A stretch of 36,842 nucleotides of DNA from Syntrophobacterales bacterium (lineage in GTDB: Bacteria; Desulfobacterota; Syntrophia; Syntrophales; UBA2210), in assembly GCA_021163105.1 (NCBI GenBank), contig JAGGXJ010000121.1, positions 1 through 36,842 on the forward strand, in the 5' to 3' direction. Both the position numbers and the translations under genes were made by a program. The notes below the pieces were generated by a model, which made no database searches, was not told the DNA's origin, and worked only from the letters and a program-made list of their open reading frames with translations. Of the stretch, positions 4,739-18,124 are shown one piece after another. Within the stretch, counting starts at the first letter, position 1; every line of letters starts with the position of its first letter.

Positions 4739-5401
4739 ATGGAAAAATTTAAAGATATAATCTCCAAGGCCTCCGGGGATATCGGCATAACACTCATCGA
4801 TCATGAGATAGATCTTTTAATGAGATATTCCGAGGAACTGCTTCTCTGGAATAAAAAAATGTCTCTTGTCTCAATAAAATCTCCTCTCGACATACAAAAA
4901 CACTTCGTTGATTCTCTGACAGTCACAAACTTTATAAAAAATGAGAATTCAAGGCTACTGGATATAGGAACTGGAGCCGGGTTGCCCGGTATTCCGCTGA
5001 AGATAAAAATGGAGTCACTCCATGTTACTCTCCTGGATTCATCCCGGAAAAAGGCCTCTTTTCTCAAGAGCACCATCCGCAAGCTCGAACTCAGCAACAT
5101 CTCGGTCGTAAACAGCAGGGCGGAATCGTTAACACATGAGGAAAATTATAGGGGGCTTTTTGATATCGTAATATCCAGGGCTGCCTTTAAAATTCCTGCT
5201 TTTCTCACATTGGGAGAATATTTTCTGTCTACCGGCGGCACATTGATAGCCATGAAAGGGAAGAATGCGGATGACGAACTTGGAGAGGCTGCGGATGCTA
5301 TAAGGAAAACGGGTTTCGAATTGACATATTGCCATGCAATAAAACTTCCGATAACAGGTGAATCAAGAAAAATTCTCTGTTTCAACAGGCGTTTGGCATA
5401 A
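4739..5401 (+). CDS. rsmG: 16S rRNA (guanine527-N7)-methyltransferase
   Basis: RsmG (GidB) methylates G527 of 16S rRNA. The 220-residue product carries the family signature WNKKMSLVSIKSPLDIQKHFVDSL near residues 37-60 and the SAM-binding loop DIGTGAGLPG at 75-84. A conserved acidic position (LLDSSRKKASFL) and the VVNSRAES block follow. The open frame extends 86 codons further upstream, but that extension is hydrophobic, unlike the family and antisense to trmJ. I therefore start at the ATG at 4739, although the ribosome site there is weak. rsmG commonly lies next to parA-parB near bacterial origins, often after mnmG. No mnmG is visible here. Confidence 0.93.
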   Translation: MEKFKDIISKASGDIGITLIDHEIDLLMRYSEELLLWNKKMSLVSIKSPLDIQKHFVDSLTVTNFIKNENSRLLDIGTGAGLPGIPLKIKMESLHVTLLDSSRKKASFLKSTIRKLELSNISVVNSRAESLTHEENYRGLFDIVISRAAFKIPAFLTLGEYFLSTGGTLIAMKGKNADDELGEAADAIRKTGFELTYCHAIKLPITGESRKILCFNRRLA

Positions 5402-5533: not shown

Positions 5534-6304
5534 ATGAGAAAAGTCATATGTATAGCAAACCAGAAGGGGGGGGTCGGCAAAACAACAACGGCTATCAACC
5601 TGTCGGCTTCTCTGGCTGTTGCGGAAAGAAAAACCCTTCTGATAGATTGTGACCCACAGGGAAATGCCACAAGCGGCGTCGGCATAGACTCTTCTGCTAT
5701 AACCGAGAAAAATCTTTACTATGCCTTGGTTCAGGGCTCTTCATTTGAAAAGGTCGTATTTAAGACACAAATCCCCTCTCTCGACATTATCCCCTCCAAC
5801 CCGGATCTGATCGGCGTGGAGGTAGAGTTTGTATCGCTAAGCAACCGGGAAAAACAACTGAAAAACTTTTTAAAAAAAATTGACTCCTCTTATGAATTTA
5901 TTATAATCGATTGTCCGCCTTCTCTTGGGTTTTTGACTGTTAATGCCCTTGTCGCATCCGATTTGCTCATAATTCCACTGCAATGCGAATACTTCGCGCT
6001 GGAAGGACTGGGACATCTACTAAACAACATTAAACTTGTGCAGGCAAGGCTTAATCCGTCCCTGTCGCTGGGTGGCATATTGCTTACCATGTTCGACCAA
6101 AGAAACCGGCTTTCCCATCAGGTAGCCGATGAAGCCCGGGAATTTTTCGGGTCCAACGTATTTAAAACCATTATACCAAGGAATGTGAGGCTTTCCGAAA
6201 GTCCAAGTCATGGATTGCCTATTATACTTTACGATATAAAATCCCGCGGTGCCATTTCATACATGGCGCTGGCAAAAGAGATTATGACTAACGGAAGGAT
6301 ATAA
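5534..6304 (+). CDS. parA: Chromosome partitioning ATPase ParA (Soj)
   Basis: ParA is a deviant-Walker ATPase that, with ParB bound to parS, segregates newly replicated origins. In some bacteria it also modulates DnaA. The 256-residue protein starts directly with the deviant Walker A motif KGGVGKTT at residues 11-18. It has the Walker A' block LIDCDPQGNATSG and Walker B block IIDCPPSLGFLTVNAL. The short N-terminus is typical of chromosomal Soj, as opposed to plasmid ParA with an added HTH. The ATG at 5534 follows AAGGA at a long spacing. The stop overlaps the parB start by one base (TAATG), so the two are translationally coupled. An eight-G run falls exactly in the Walker A codons. Confidence 0.95.
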   Translation: MRKVICIANQKGGVGKTTTAINLSASLAVAERKTLLIDCDPQGNATSGVGIDSSAITEKNLYYALVQGSSFEKVVFKTQIPSLDIIPSNPDLIGVEVEFVSLSNREKQLKNFLKKIDSSYEFIIIDCPPSLGFLTVNALVASDLLIIPLQCEYFALEGLGHLLNNIKLVQARLNPSLSLGGILLTMFDQRNRLSHQVADEAREFFGSNVFKTIIPRNVRLSESPSHGLPIILYDIKSRGAISYMALAKEIMTNGRI

Positions 6305-7164
6305 TGTCTAAAAAAAACGCATTGGGAAAGGGGCTCGGCGCCATATTCACCGACCTTATGGATGACCCCTCCGACAAACCAAATTTCGCAATGTGCGGAA
6401 TCGAGGAATTATCCCCAAACAGATTCCAGCCCAGAAAGAGCTTTGATGGGAAAGAGCAAAAAAATCTTGCGACATCCATCAAAAAAAATGGCATCCTGCA
6501 ACCGATTGTTGTGAGAAAGGTTGAGTCGGGTTATGAAATTATCGCGGGGGAACGCAGATGGAGGGCGGCCCAAACCGCGGGATTAATGGATGTACCGATT
6601 ATTATCAGACATAATGCAGAAGATGTCGACGTGGCTGAACTGTCTCTCGTGGAAAATATACAGCGCGAGGAATTGAATCCCATAGAAGAATCGGAGGCAT
6701 ACCAGGCCCTCATTAAAAAATTCCGCTTTTCCCAAGACGAAATATCATCACGGGTAGGCAAGGACCGGTCAACCATAGCAAATTCCCTTCGCCTGCTTAA
6801 TCTTCCCGGAGAGGCAAAAAATGCGTTGATAAAAAAAGATATTTCCGCCGGACACGCGAGAGCCATTCTGTCGGTTGATTCGCGGGAAAAGCAGATCTAC
6901 CTTTTAAAGGAAATCGCAAGGAAAAAACTCAGCGTCAGGGAAACTGAAAAATTGGCAAAATCAATTGATTCCTACCTTAAAAAGAAAAAAAAGGTGAAAA
7001 AAGATATATACATTACGGATCTTGAAAATAAAATATCTGAAAAATTGATGGCAAAGGCAAACATAAAACAGTTGAGCGTTGGTGGTGTTATAGAAATTAG
7101 ATTCTCATCCTCAGATGATCTGGACAGGTTATTGAATGTGATTATGGATGGAGATATTAAGTAA
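6304..7164 (+). CDS. parB: Chromosome partitioning protein ParB (Spo0J), CTPase and parS-binding protein
   Basis: ParB loads on parS sites and spreads as a CTP-dependent clamp around the origin. The 286-residue protein has the basic N-terminal KKNALGKGLGAIF tail that contacts ParA. The N-terminal CTPase domain includes Box II GERRWRA (about 82-88) and the VENIQREELNPIEE block. A helix-turn-helix covers about 143-168 (SQDEISSRVGKDRSTIANSLRLL), and a C-terminal dimerisation domain follows. It overlaps parA by one base and ends 90 bases before dnaA. I found no sequence matching the canonical parS palindrome TGTTTCACGTGAAACA in this window by eye. Confidence 0.95.
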   Translation: MSKKNALGKGLGAIFTDLMDDPSDKPNFAMCGIEELSPNRFQPRKSFDGKEQKNLATSIKKNGILQPIVVRKVESGYEIIAGERRWRAAQTAGLMDVPIIIRHNAEDVDVAELSLVENIQREELNPIEESEAYQALIKKFRFSQDEISSRVGKDRSTIANSLRLLNLPGEAKNALIKKDISAGHARAILSVDSREKQIYLLKEIARKKLSVRETEKLAKSIDSYLKKKKKVKKDIYITDLENKISEKLMAKANIKQLSVGGVIEIRFSSSDDLDRLLNVIMDGDIK

Positions 7165-7212
7165 GTAAAAATGGTATTACTACTACAACCCTGTGTAGTT
7201 AGAAAAGTTCCA

Positions 7213-7242
7213 TTAACAGTTGTTGATAACATTGTTTATAAA
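7213..7242 (+). promoter_or_regulatory. Putative dnaA promoter with a DnaA box in its spacer
   Basis: TTAACA (7213-7218, five of six consensus bases) is followed by TATAAA (7237-7242) at 18 bases, or TTATAA (7236-7241) at 17. The DnaA box at 7221-7229 lies between the two hexamers, which would suit autorepression by DnaA. Transcription would then start only a few bases before the TTG codon, implying an almost leaderless mRNA. The promoter call is therefore tentative. Confidence 0.3.
7221..7229 (-). promoter_or_regulatory. DnaA box upstream of dnaA
   Basis: TGTTGATAA is the reverse complement of TTATCAACA, a common DnaA-box variant, and is the same sequence as the box in the dnaA-dnaN gap but on the other strand. 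It sits 26 bases before the dnaA start. Confidence 0.6.
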
Positions 7243-7251
7243 GGTTGATAA
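7243..7251 (-). promoter_or_regulatory. Second, one-mismatch DnaA box overlapping the dnaA ribosome site
   Basis: GGTTGATAA differs by one base from the box at 7221-7229. It has the same orientation, and the two centres are 22 bases (two helical turns) apart. It overlaps the AAGG at 7241-7244 that serves as the only visible ribosome site of dnaA. Tandem boxes in phase suggest cooperative DnaA binding. Confidence 0.4.
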
Positions 7252-8649: not shown

Positions 8650-8658
8650 TTATCAACA
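8650..8658 (+). promoter_or_regulatory. DnaA box of the unwinding element
   Basis: TTATCAACA differs from the TTATCCACA consensus by one base, at a position where variants are common. It is nine bases upstream of the trio repeats and points toward them. Confidence 0.65.
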
Positions 8659-8660
8659 AA

Positions 8661-8689
8661 TTAACAGCTACTACTATTATTACTATATT
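8661..8689 (+). promoter_or_regulatory. Putative dnaN promoter overlapping the DnaA-trio
   Basis: TTAACA (8661-8666) and TATATT (8684-8689), each one base from consensus, are separated by an optimal 17 bases. The spacer is essentially the DnaA-trio. The predicted start near 8696 leaves a short leader with an AAGGATAGG ribosome site before the dnaN ATG at 8727. Confidence 0.5.
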
Positions 8690-8726
8690 TTCTAATTAAA
8701 AAATTTTTTTAAGGATAGGTGAAAAA

Positions 8727-9836
8727 ATGAATTTTTCGATCAAAAGAGATATTTTTTTAAATGGTATTCAAAAAACTTTGGGAATTGTAGAAAGAAAAAC
8801 AACTCTTCCGATTCTTAATAATATTTTAATTCAAACGGAATCGGAACAAATTAAAATAGTGGCTACCGACAGAGAGATAGGTTTAATTTCATATTGTGAT
8901 GCTAAAATTATAACTCAAGGGAAAATCACGGTTGCTGCCAGAAAACTATTTGAAATGATAAGAGAGATTGAGGGAGATATTATAGAATTTGAGGTAATGG
9001 AAAATAACTGGGTAAACGTAACGTGCGGTAAGGTAATATATAAAATACCGGGTATATCTGCTGATGATTTTCCTGAAGTTTTGGATATTGAAAATATAAA
9101 AACTCTCAAAATAAAATGCAGTGTATTGAAAAATATAATAGACAAGACATTTTTTGCTATTTCCAATGATGAGATGAGGCCGAACCTGAATGGAATATTT
9201 TTTAAGGTGACAGACGGGAGAATCAATGTGGTTGCAACAGATGGTCACAGGTTATCTCTTGTTAATGTACCTTTAGAGAGTGATTTAGGAGATACTGTTG
9301 ATGGGATAATAATACCCAGGAAGGGAGTATCTGAGATAAGAAAGCTTATTGAAGATGGTGATTCTGTCGATATGTGTGTAATTGAAGGTGTATGTGTAAT
9401 CAGGAAGAACAATACCATCTTAAGAATAAGTCTTATCGACGCGGAATATCCGGATTACAAAAGAGTTATCCCGGAAAATGGAGGAGTGGAAATACAGCTG
9501 GACAAAAATCAGATACTTCATTCCCTTAGAAGGATGAGTGTAATGTCTACCGAAAGGTTTAGTGGAGTGAAAATAGAGGTTCATGACCAGAGAATGGTGT
9601 TAACTTCAACCAACCCGGATGTTGGGGAGGCAAAAGATGAAATAGATGTGTCGTATAGTGGAGATATGTTGGAGGCGGGTTATAATGTCAGATATCTTAT
9701 AGACGCCATGGAGCCTGTTGTGGAGAATATAATATCTTTTAAAATAAGAGGAGATGAGGGTCCAGGAATTATCGGATCCGCAGGCAACAGTGATTATATG
9801 TGTATAGTAATGCCTGTAAAATTAAGAAAGGATTAG
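8727..9836 (+). CDS. dnaN: DNA polymerase III beta subunit (sliding clamp)
   Basis: The beta clamp is a ring-shaped dimer that tethers DNA polymerase III and other partners to DNA. The 369-residue length is standard and three repeated clamp domains can be followed. The start is RDIFLNGIQKTLGIVERKTTLPILNNIL-like. The middle carries the typical RPNLNGIFFKV and ATDGHRLSLV blocks, and the end is the conserved YMCIVMPVKLR, which lines the peptide-binding pocket. The ATG at 8727 is preceded by AAGGATAGGTG. The gene follows dnaA across the origin and is followed eleven bases later by gyrB, with no recF between. Confidence 0.96.
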   Translation: MNFSIKRDIFLNGIQKTLGIVERKTTLPILNNILIQTESEQIKIVATDREIGLISYCDAKIITQGKITVAARKLFEMIREIEGDIIEFEVMENNWVNVTCGKVIYKIPGISADDFPEVLDIENIKTLKIKCSVLKNIIDKTFFAISNDEMRPNLNGIFFKVTDGRINVVATDGHRLSLVNVPLESDLGDTVDGIIIPRKGVSEIRKLIEDGDSVDMCVIEGVCVIRKNNTILRISLIDAEYPDYKRVIPENGGVEIQLDKNQILHSLRRMSVMSTERFSGVKIEVHDQRMVLTSTNPDVGEAKDEIDVSYSGDMLEAGYNVRYLIDAMEPVVENIISFKIRGDEGPGIIGSAGNSDYMCIVMPVKLRKD

Positions 9837-9841
9837 ATTAG

Positions 9842-12256
<2,415 letters not shown>

Positions 12257-12327
12257 TTTTAGGGATAATTAAGAGGATTCCCACCACTGAACACACACCC
12301 TGAATAGATAGAAAGGTTTTTAAAAAT

Positions 12328-14808
12328 ATGGATCAGTTGTTCCAGAAAAACATACCGGTAACGATAGAAGATGAAATGAAAAAGTCCTACATGGAATACG
12401 CGATGAGTGTAATTGTAGGACGCGCAATTCCCGATATCAGGGATGGCCTGAAACCGGTTCACAGAAGAGCGCTGTTCGCCATGTCTGAGCTTGGGAACAG
12501 ATGGAACAGGCCCTATAAAAAATCTGCAAGAATAGTAGGCGATATTATAGGTAAATACCATCCTCATGGAGACACGGCTGCGTATGATACCGTTGTCAGA
12601 ATGGCACAGGATTTCTCCATGAGATATCCGCTCATTGACGGTCAGGGAAATTTCGGATCTATTGATGGAGATCCGCCCGCCGCCATGCGTTATACAGAGA
12701 TCAGGATGGAGAAGATGGCGGAAGAGCTTCTCTCGGACCTTGATAAGAATACCGTTGATTTTGTTCCGAACTACGACGGGTCTCTTGATGAACCGATGGT
12801 TCTTCCCGCTAGGATTCCCACCCTTCTTCTGAACGGGTCGTCAGGAATAGCGGTTGGTCTGACAACCAATGTCCCCCCCCATAACCTTACCGAACTTGTT
12901 GATGGGATAATAGAGCTTATCCATAATCCGGAACTTTCGGTTGACGATCTTATGGCATTTGTAAAGGGTCCGGATTTTCCCACTGCCGGATTTATTAATG
13001 GCAGAGACGGCATAGTTTCCGCCTACCGTACAGGGCGTGGAATCATCAGGCTCAGAGCGCGTGCCATCATTGAACGAAACGCCAGAAACGACAGGGAGAG
13101 CATTATTGTTACAGAACTGCCCTACCTTGTTAACAAGGCAAATCTTATAGAAAAAATATCCGAGCTGGTAAAGGAAAAGAAGATAAGCGGTATAGCCGAT
13201 TTGAGAGACGAATCAGATCGCGAAGGAATGAGAATAGTAATAGAGCTCAAAAGGGATGAGATATCCGGGGTTATTATCAATCAGCTCTATAAACACACCC
13301 AGATGGAATCGACATTCGGTATAATCATGCTGGCCATTGACCGAGGACAGCCAAGGCTTATGAACCTTAAGGAAATCCTCGGTAAGTTTATCGATTTCAG
13401 AAAAGAGGTGATTACCAGAAGAACAATGTTTGAGCTGTCCAAAGCCAAGGAGAAACTGCATATCCTGGAAGGGTTCATCATTGCTCTCGACAACATAGAC
13501 GAAGTCATAGCGATTATTAAGGCATCACAAACTGCGAAAGTGGCCTCCGAAGAGTTAATGGCACGATTCGGCCTGAGTCAAGAGCAGACCAAGGCAATCC
13601 TGGAAATGAGACTGCAAAGACTGACCGGTCTGGAAAGGGATAAGATACGGGAAGAGCATATAGAGATATCAGCCCTTGTTAAAAAGTTGGAAGGCATACT
13701 CGCGGATTCTCAGAAGATACTCAATATCATTATAGGGGAACTGGAAGATATACAAAAACGATATGGAGATGTCAGGAGGACCGAGATAGTCTTGAGCAAT
13801 ACGGATATCGGGATTGAAGATATGATTGTGGAAGAAGATATGGTTGTTACCATATCACACCAGAATTATATAAAGAGAAATCCGGTGAGTCTGTACAGAA
13901 GCCAGCATCGCGGCGGGCGCGGGAAAGTCGGTATGGGTACAAAAGAGGATGACTTTCTTGAAAGGATGTTTATAGCCTCGACACACAGCCATATCCTGTT
14001 TTTCACTAATCTGGGGCGTGTATACTGGTTGAAAATATACCAGATTCCCCAAGCTGGAAGAGCCGCGAAGGGCAAGGCGATAGTTAATCTCATAGGAGTA
14101 TCTAAGGATGAGAAAATTACGGCGGTTCTTCCCGTAAAGGAGTTTGTCGAGGATAAATTTGTTATAATGGCAACCAGGCGGGGAATTATCAAAAAGACAG
14201 ACCTTATCGCCTACTCCAACCCGAGAAGCGGTGGTATAATTGCGCTTACCCTTGACGAAGGAGACGAACTGATCGATGTTAAGCAAACCAATGGAGACCA
14301 GGATATTTTCTTGGGCGCCAGGAAAGGCAACGCGATCCGATTCAACGAGAAAAATGTCCGTGCCATGGGAAGAACAGCCCGTGGAGTAACCGGCATTAGA
14401 ATAGCACAAGATGATGAAGTGGTTGGTATGGAGGTGTTAAGTGACAACAATTCCATCCTGACCGTTTCGGAAAACGGATTCGGCAAGAGGACTGAGATTT
14501 TGGAATATCGCCTTCAGTCACGGGGTGGAAAGGGAATTATTAATCTCAAGACCACACCGAAGGTGGGTTTTGTGACACGCATAAAACAGGTCACCGGCGA
14601 TGAGGATATTATGCTGATCAGCAACACCGGTAATATTATACGGCTTGGTGTTAATGAAGTTTCACTTCTGCACCGCAGCACGCAGGGAGTTAAACTGATA
14701 GATCTGGACGATGAAGAAATGCTTGTGGGCTTGGCAAGAGTGGAACGCGAAGATCCTGATATGCATGAAGAATTACCCGGCGAGGAGTCAGGGGTGTTTG
14801 AATTTTGA
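12328..14808 (+). CDS. gyrA: DNA gyrase subunit A
   Basis: GyrA cuts and rejoins DNA and wraps it for supercoiling. The 826-residue protein has the breakage-reunion domain with catalytic Tyr122 (in AAMRYTE), the same number as in Escherichia coli. Its quinolone-determining region reads [10 protein letters not shown], so position 83 is threonine and 87 aspartate. Thr at 83 occurs naturally in several phyla, so I infer nothing about resistance. The C-terminal beta-pinwheel starts with the GyrA box QHRGGRG at 526-532, which distinguishes it from ParC. The protein ends in an acidic tail ([13 protein letters not shown]). The gene lies 71 bases after gyrB. An eight-C run falls in the conserved TNVPPHN codons. 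Confidence 0.97.
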
Positions 14809-16242: not shown

Positions 16243-16686
16243 ATGAATAAAAAGAGAAATCGGGTGGCGTTCCCACCTTATAGAATATTTGACCATACGG
16301 CCGATCTGGGAGTGGAGATATATGGGATAAATGAGAGAGACCTCTTTTGCAATGCAGCCTTTGCTGTTTTTGATATAATGACCGATATAAACCTTGTACA
16401 TGCAAGGAAAGAAAAAGAAATTTTTGTTGAAGGCGGCGATCTGGAGGAACTTCTGGTAAATTTTCTCAGAGAGATGTTGTACCTGTACAATGGAGAAGGT
16501 TTGTTATTGAAAGAATTTGTAATTTCCGTAATGGACAACTTTCACATAAAGGGAATAGCAAAAGGGGAGCTGTTTTCGCGAGCAAGACACCGTATGAATA
16601 TTGAGATAAAGGCGATTACCTATCATTGGGTAGAGATAAGAAAAACCCGAGAGACATGGATTGGGAGGGTTATTTTCGATGTCTGA
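16243..16686 (+). CDS. Archease, activator of the RNA ligase RtcB
   Basis: Archease speeds guanylylation and turnover of RtcB. The 147-residue protein opens with the family motif FDHTADLGVEIYG (acidic metal-binding residues). It continues with LFCNAAFAVFDIMTD, the LEELLVNFLREMLYLY helix and the C-terminal EIKAITYHWVEI block. The last eight bases overlap the start of rtcB, so partner proteins are translationally coupled. The ATG at 16243 has a modest AAAGG site. The pairing with an RtcB whose key residues match the archaeal enzyme makes the call secure. Confidence 0.93.
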   Translation: MNKKRNRVAFPPYRIFDHTADLGVEIYGINERDLFCNAAFAVFDIMTDINLVHARKEKEIFVEGGDLEELLVNFLREMLYLYNGEGLLLKEFVISVMDNFHIKGIAKGELFSRARHRMNIEIKAITYHWVEIRKTRETWIGRVIFDV

Positions 16687-18124
16687 TATTAGAATTGAAA
16701 AACTTGATGAATTTCGCTGGATCATACCACCTGCGGGTGGCATGCGTGTTCCCGGGATTATCTATGCCGATGAACGGATGATGAAAAGTCTAGAAAAAGA
16801 TGAAAGCCTCGGGCAGGTTGCCAATGTGGCACATCTCCCGGGTATCATCAGACATTCCCTTGCCATGCCTGATATACACTGGGGCTATGGGTTTCCCATA
16901 GGTGGTGTCGCCGCCTTCGATATGGAAGACGGGATTATTTCTCCGGGAGGGGTGGGGTATGACATAAACTGCGGTGTTCGCCTGATGGTGACAAATCTCC
17001 AATTTGGTGAAATTAGAGAACGGTTAAAAGATCTTGTTATTGCCCTTTTCAGGGATATACCTGCCGGTGTGGGATCTGAAGGTCCCATTGAACTTTCTCC
17101 CGATGAAGAAAAAAGAGTGTTGCGGGAAGGCGCCGGATGGGCAGTCAAACTTGGGTATGGCTCCGGGGGCGATCTGGTGACTATCGAGGATGGCGGCAGG
17201 ATGGAGGGGGCGGATCCCTCCTGCGTGAGCGAGCGGGCACTTGAAAGGGGCAGAAGACAGTTGGGAACACTTGGCTCCGGGAACCACTTCTTGGAGATAG
17301 AGGTTGTGGACAAGATCTTTGACAGAAAAATTGCCTCCACATTCGGGCTGATGGCAGAGGGACAGGTTGCTGTCGCCATTCACACGGGATCCCGGGGTTT
17401 TGGACATCAGGTGTGCGATGACTATCTTGCAAGGATGGTGAAGCGCAGCAACAAGCTGGATTTTCCACTGCCTGACCGGCAGCTGGCCTGCGCGTACATT
17501 GCCTCTGATGAGGGGAAGGAATATATGTCTGCCATGGCATGCGCCGCTAATTACGCCTGGGCGAACAGACAAATACTGACGCACTGGACCAGACAGATCT
17601 TTGAAAAAACGTTGCATATGTCTCCACGCGAAATAGAAATGCGGCTAGTTTATGATGTATGTCACAATATTGCGAAGATAGAGGAATTTCCTGTAGCGAG
17701 CAGGAAAAGGAAGGTGTGTGTGCACCGTAAGGGGGCCACGAGGGCTTTGCCTCCCCAACATCCTGCCCTGCCGGACGTGTATCACGAGGTGGGCCAGCCG
17801 GTACTGATACCCGGGGATATGGGCACAGGATCCTATGTGCTCGCGGGAGCAGAAAAGGCCTTTGAAGAAACATTCGGCAGCTGCTCTCATGGTGCCGGAC
17901 GGGTGATGAGCCGTGGCAGGGCGATAAGGGAGAGCCGAAACAAATCAATAGTAAAAGAAATGGCCGATAGAGGTATTGTGATCATGGCTGCCGGGGAAAA
18001 GACAATTCGTGAAGAGATGCCTGACGCGTATAAGGATATGGAAGACGTGGTGAACATTGTCCATCGGGCTGGCCTGTCCAGAAAGGTCGCGAGGCTCAGG
18101 GCCGTAGGGTGCATCAAGGGATGA
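16679..18124 (+). CDS. rtcB: tRNA-splicing/RNA-repair ligase RtcB
   Basis: RtcB joins RNA 2',3'-cyclic phosphate (or 3'-phosphate) and 5'-OH ends using GTP and Mn2+. I start at the ATG at 16679, nine bases after GGGAGGG and overlapping archease. An upstream TTG at 16661 would destroy that site. The resulting 481 residues carry metal ligands Asp95 and Cys98 (in YDINCGVR), His203 (GNHF), His235 (AIHTGSRG) and His329 (VCHN). The guanylylated His404 is in SCSHGAGR. Length and most of these numbers match the well-studied Pyrococcus enzyme. No RtcR regulator or RtcA is nearby, so control is unlike the E. coli rtc operon. The stop TGA is formed by the first bases of the downstream repeat. Confidence 0.95.
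   Translation: MSDIRIEKLDEFRWIIPPAGGMRVPGIIYADERMMKSLEKDESLGQVANVAHLPGIIRHSLAMPDIHWGYGFPIGGVAAFDMEDGIISPGGVGYDINCGVRLMVTNLQFGEIRERLKDLVIALFRDIPAGVGSEGPIELSPDEEKRVLREGAGWAVKLGYGSGGDLVTIEDGGRMEGADPSCVSERALERGRRQLGTLGSGNHFLEIEVVDKIFDRKIASTFGLMAEGQVAVAIHTGSRGFGHQVCDDYLARMVKRSNKLDFPLPDRQLACAYIASDEGKEYMSAMACAANYAWANRQILTHWTRQIFEKTLHMSPREIEMRLVYDVCHNIAKIEEFPVASRKRKVCVHRKGATRALPPQHPALPDVYHEVGQPVLIPGDMGTGSYVLAGAEKAFEETFGSCSHGAGRVMSRGRAIRESRNKSIVKEMADRGIVIMAAGEKTIREEMPDAYKDMEDVVNIVHRAGLSRKVARLRAVGCIKG

Follow-up and report, generated by a model that had tools for sequence, protein, structure and literature searches.

A probable DnaA-trio unwinding element between dnaA and dnaN in a Syntrophales-type bacterium and the box-to-trio register of its relatives

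The window, the whole stretch of 36,842 nucleotides analysed here, comes from an assembly of 2.01 Mb in 154 contigs and carries dnaA and dnaN together with genes for partition and DNA gyrase. The features considered are as follows.

5534-7164, plus strand: parA and parB, origin-proximal partition genes
7210-7218, plus strand: upstream DnaA box CCATTAACA, weak
7221-7229, minus strand: upstream DnaA box TGTTGATAA
7233-7241, minus strand: upstream DnaA box TGTTTATAA
7243-7251, minus strand: upstream DnaA box GGTTGATAA
7255-8589, plus strand: dnaA, TTG start (TIGR00362, E 3e-166)
8650-8658, plus strand: DnaA box 1, TTATCAACA, predicted anchor of the unwinding element, read directly and found at the same place in relatives
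8658-8666, plus strand: degenerate tandem DnaA box 2, AAATTAACA, from comparison with relatives
8667-8670, plus strand: spacer GCTA, from alignment on the tandem boxes; its last three bases double as a trio here
8668-8685, plus strand: six YTA triplets, CTACTACTATTATTACTA (CTA CTA CTA TTA TTA CTA)
8686-8713, no strand assigned: A/T tract TATTTTCTAATTAAAAAATTTTTTTAAG, putative unwinding region past the trios, with A/T-rich columns in relatives
8727-9836, plus strand: dnaN (TIGR00663, E 1e-87)
9848-14808, plus strand: gyrB and gyrA

The dnaA-dnaN gap is 79% A+T and doubles as the leader of dnaN. Box 1 has one mismatch to the DnaA-box consensus TTATCCACA and is followed by a linker of 9 bases, AATTAACAG (8659-8667, direct read), and then by the triplets, which on the bottom strand give the DnaA-trios 3'-GAT GAT GAT AAT AAT GAT-5' (four GAT and two AAT). 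Box 2 shares one base with box 1, which sets the pitch of the pair at 8 bp, the value conserved in relatives; it has 4 mismatches to the consensus and is recognisable only by comparison with them. A preliminary description made from the sequence had named the box, the nine bases, the six trios and the A/T tract (8650-8713), and a direct read shows it to be correct to the base; the gene profiles and coordinates likewise agree with its placing of the element between dnaA and dnaN, with parAB and gyrBA as neighbours. It had also seen only one near-consensus box on this side of dnaA, which is literally true, as the gap holds no other DnaA box with up to 2 mismatches, with the weaker box 2 overlapping the one it saw. 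An RNA or structured leader in the gap was considered as a separate candidate and dropped (no Rfam match; DNA fold z -1.5). Elsewhere in the window, 2 kb downstream of gyrA, genes for archease and the RtcB tRNA-splicing ligase are adjacent and overlap, forming an RNA repair pair (16243-18124).

The nearest DnaA records belong to metagenome bins labelled Deltaproteobacteria, Syntrophales and Syntrophaceae, with identities from 93% down to 60%. Judged by these sequences the host is a member of the Desulfobacterota, as had been proposed, and more precisely of a Syntrophales-type lineage. An end-to-end alignment of the window DnaA with the 8btg chain from B. subtilis (E 2e-142) shows identity at 8 of 9 checked positions (E183, N187, I190, R202, K222, E223, E228 and R264 in B. 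subtilis numbering), which cover the trio-binding ISM residues and the arginine finger. The exception is N196, whose contact in B. subtilis is with the third base of the trio; the window protein has an aspartate, D191, in its place. Two of the assemblies compared each carry two full-length DnaA genes. Those of G035 (C75 and C217) share 84% and 66% identity with the query, those of G025 (C26 and C291) 64% and 46%, and they may represent contamination or true paralogues.

The run of six YTA triplets is the sole run of at least four YTA on either strand of the 36.8-kb window. Throughout the 2.01-Mb assembly the pattern YTATCMACA-N(0-20)-(YTA)4 has a single match, at the 8650 element, and its reversed control has none. 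Dinucleotide shuffles of the gap produced six YTA in 0 of 5000 cases and five in 5. Such shuffles often contain six NTN in a row, so that the evidence resides in the YTA sequence and not merely in the middle A of each trio.

For comparison, the dnaA-dnaN gaps of 111 loci were extracted and pooled with that of the window; removing those 90% or more alike left 83, mostly from Syntrophales. Of these non-redundant gaps 67 have a box matching at least 8 of 9 positions, followed at a distance of up to 16 bp by three or more YTA out of five; shuffled gaps reach a mean of 1.1 and a maximum of 3, and reverse complements 0. With four or more YTA required the count is 47 (shuffles 0), and with all five it is 17, against 0 in the control. 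The gaps that lack the pattern include some contig ends, loci of second DnaA copies and lineages whose trios have diverged. The conservation in relatives that the preliminary description had set as a check was thus borne out. In other Desulfobacterota families (loci L154-L217) a box with at least three of five YTA occurs in 36 of 64 gaps, a count made without a shuffle control. A strict pattern of box, box, spacer and trios, TATCMACANATNMACANNNN(YTA)3, was scanned over 395 Desulfobacterota genomes and gave 7 matches, a figure that measures specificity and not prevalence; all 7 lie in dnaA-dnaN gaps, and the reversed control gave 0. That the gap is A/T-rich and serves as the dnaN leader could favour a reading in which the triplets are a chance A/T-rich repeat, or a promoter or leader feature of dnaN, with no role in the origin, but the shuffle and reverse-complement controls, the uniqueness in the genome and the conserved register described below all argue against it, and we regard it as extremely improbable.

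Some relatives carry a further array of opposite orientation. At loci L141-L146 and L148-L153 of Desulfobacterota family f59 (for example in genomes G097, G132, G165, G220, G266 and G288), and at L101-L103, an inverted array, TAGTAGTAA and similar, lies between the YTA array and dnaN. It was seen in 6 of the 6 family f59 genomes read, with per-genome shuffle P values between 0 and about 0.12, and ranges from a run of only two in G266 to as many as eight TAG in G288; a search for a mirrored DnaA box gave nothing convincing. The trios of the two arrays could face each other on opposite strands, and the inverted array could be a loading site of DnaA or helicase for the second strand, or might simply form a hairpin in the leader of dnaN. 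Other Desulfobacterota families (L159, L162, L166 and L208) have weaker runs of inverted TAR, TAGTAATAG and similar, on the side of the trios that faces dnaN.

The register of the element was obtained from an alignment anchored on the tandem boxes alone, the trios being left unused. A tandem pair at 8-bp pitch is found in 66 of the 83 non-redundant gaps, the typical second box of the relatives being (A)TATCAACA. The box-anchored alignment shows a period-3 conservation of five trios at a fixed spacing of 4 bp: the starts of the two boxes are 8 bp apart, and the first trio stands 4 bp past the second box and 12 past the first, behind a 4-bp spacer that usually contains G/C. For trios 1 to 5 conservation is strongest at the middle base (T, or A on the bound strand; 1.47, 1.54, 1.11, 1.16 and 1.37 bits), followed by the third base (1.37, 1.08, 1.11, 0.94 and 0.78 bits) and the first (0.54, 0.68, 0.44, 0.21 and 0.95 bits). 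In the published nucleobase-capture structure of B. subtilis, capture takes in bases one and two of the trio, with the third pointing away (PMC10721633). The strong conservation of the middle base agrees with this structure, while that of the third base is not accounted for by capture alone.

In the window the first of the six YTA stands 9 bp from box 1 and 1 bp from box 2, where the register of the lineage is 12 or 4, an offset of exactly one trio (three bases). The window can consequently be read either as a GCTA spacer with five trios, or as a spacer of 1 with six trios, and the last five (8671-8685) sit in the conserved register of the lineage. A more apt description seems to be two tandem boxes of which the second has decayed, a 4-bp spacer, five conserved trios and one optional trio within the spacer. 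The nine-base linker of the preliminary description was therefore right in length but contains the degenerate second box, and its six trios, present as YTA triplets, resolve into five in the lineage register and one in the spacer.

A different view is that the element is a single-box one shifted by one DnaA protomer, box 2 having decayed and the CTA at 8668-8670 being a true trio, so that six trios are loaded from box 1. The six trios are indeed unbroken, whether box 2 is taken as the reference (spacer of 1) or box 1 (spacer of 9); L003, the 93%-identical relative, has GTTA in place of GCTA and so likewise a YTA there; and the ACAG-CTA form recurs in at least four other gaps (L012, L072, L101 and L102). 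In B. subtilis, moreover, unwinding survived a deletion of 3 bp and was slowed by one of 1 bp (PMC6669920). However, two relatives of the same genus keep the weak box 2 and yet have ATTC (L005) or GTTC (L006) at this place, so that only five trios are needed. We consider the single-box reading possible but lean against it. That in this genus box 2 is decaying and an extra trio has arisen from the spacer is a doubtful proposition; if true, the hand-over from double-stranded to single-stranded DNA would be shifted by exactly one DnaA protomer, and the locus would be a natural variant testing whether trio register or trio number matters.

Predicted DnaA boxes flank dnaA on both sides, at 7210-7251 and 8650-8666, and a convergent pair of boxes upstream of dnaA is found in 62 of 82 relatives. 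The cluster at 7210-7251 is probably the second half of a bipartite oriC, a site of dnaA autoregulation, or both. As relatives share this upstream cluster, the origin is not evidently minimal; the earlier suggestion that it might be is unsupported, and a bipartite oriC melting on the dnaN side is probably the likelier arrangement. Such a layout is known in B. subtilis, H. pylori and C. difficile (PMC7561715; PMC8235120). The conserved cluster, together with a short TTACTACTA run at 7176-7184, might also be taken to mean that the true melting site lies upstream of dnaA, the downstream element being secondary. But this run, dropped as a candidate trio array, lacks a DnaA box on its 5' side, and most relatives of the same genus or family do not have it; a three-YTA run arises in 9% of dnaA-dnaN gap shuffles; both the A/T tract and the long trio array are downstream; and C. 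difficile also melts on the dnaN side (PMC7561715). Upstream melting is accordingly rated as very improbable.

A GC-skew minimum at the element had also been anticipated. The cumulative minimum of the window lies at 5103, 3.5 kb to the left of the element, where gene orientation flips; minus-strand genes at 23-28 kb turn the skew negative again. Because skew here tracks gene orientation, the window minimum was not used to position the origin. Skew at third codon positions of the coding strand is about zero for rsmG, parA and parB and positive from dnaA on, which weakly fits a switch between parB and dnaA. In a complete genome of the same order (G052, dnaA at 176-1507), 20 samples of 20 kb place the cumulative minimum at the start, that is at dnaA, and the maximum near 1.76-1.94 Mb, approximately mid-chromosome. 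The expectation thus held in the complete relative, and in the window itself the minimum lies elsewhere and is confounded by orientation.

According to a survey of bacterial origins (PMC8287927), a BUS (basal or bacterial unwinding system) comprises a DnaA box with no more than 2 mismatches to TTATCCACA, a spacer of 0-16 bp to the first trio and an unbroken run of three or more 3'-NAN-5' trios, with GAT preferred; a tandem second box is optional (57% of predicted cases), and a BUS was predicted in 1755 of 2070 surveyed origins (85%). With one mismatch in box 1, a spacer of 9 bp or 1 bp and six trios, the element falls within this definition, and the likeness to the element first described in B. 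subtilis, already pointed out, stands. The B. subtilis BUS (incC/oriC2) consists of DnaA-boxes 6 and 7, GGCC and six DnaA-trios; as in the window if box 2 is counted, overlapping tandem boxes are followed by a spacer, trios and an A/T tract in the dnaA-dnaN gap (PMC8235120), and the trio-contacting DnaA residues are conserved. For the trio part, the only one compared, the published B. subtilis strand is CTACTATTACTTCTACTA (PMC10201434) against CTACTACTATTATTACTA here. The window differs in having one good box downstream of dnaA, a degenerate box 2 followed by G + CTA instead of GGCC, and D in place of N196. Helicobacter pylori oriC2, with boxes ts1 and ts2, a GC-rich spacer and DnaA-trios, likewise belongs to a bipartite oriC around dnaA with the DUE and trios in one half (PMC8235120), but its box consensus differs and ts1 and ts2 abut without overlap. 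Clostridioides difficile oriC2 shares the bipartite layout and the dnaA-dnaN gap, where it melts, and has the trio run 5'-CACCTACTACTATTACTACTATGA-3' (PMC7561715); unlike the window, it has many more predicted boxes and belongs to the Firmicutes.

We identify the element as the BUS of a chromosome origin with a probability of about 0.93; the skew minimum at 5103, the poor box 2, the N196 to D change, the division of the assembly into 154 contigs, which limits the reading of its own skew to the window, and the failure to find any parS with up to 3 mismatches near parAB in the window were counted against this reading. Other species provide the model for DnaA binding, melting, helicase entry and loading, looping and autoregulation, and by analogy DnaA would bind double-stranded DNA at the anchor box (8650), aided by the weak overlapping box 2, and an ATP-DnaA oligomer would grow from the boxes onto the bottom strand. 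A pair of protomers would capture the G or A and the middle A of each trio (3'-GAT/AAT-5'), the stretched strand would separate, and melting would extend into the A/T tract at 8686-8713 as the place of helicase loading. The cluster at 7210-7251 would probably act as the other half of the bipartite oriC and may regulate dnaA too.

The literature searched contained nothing on DnaA-trios together with 'Desulf' names. The element type is already known, and its occurrence in a Syntrophales-type lineage appears to be new; neither this nor the five trios of the Syntrophales set, in fixed register from the box, would surprise a replication specialist. The comparison provides a supported BUS, at the strength given above, for an uncultured lineage of Desulfobacterota, and the element would place oriC in genomes that are too fragmented for skew analysis.
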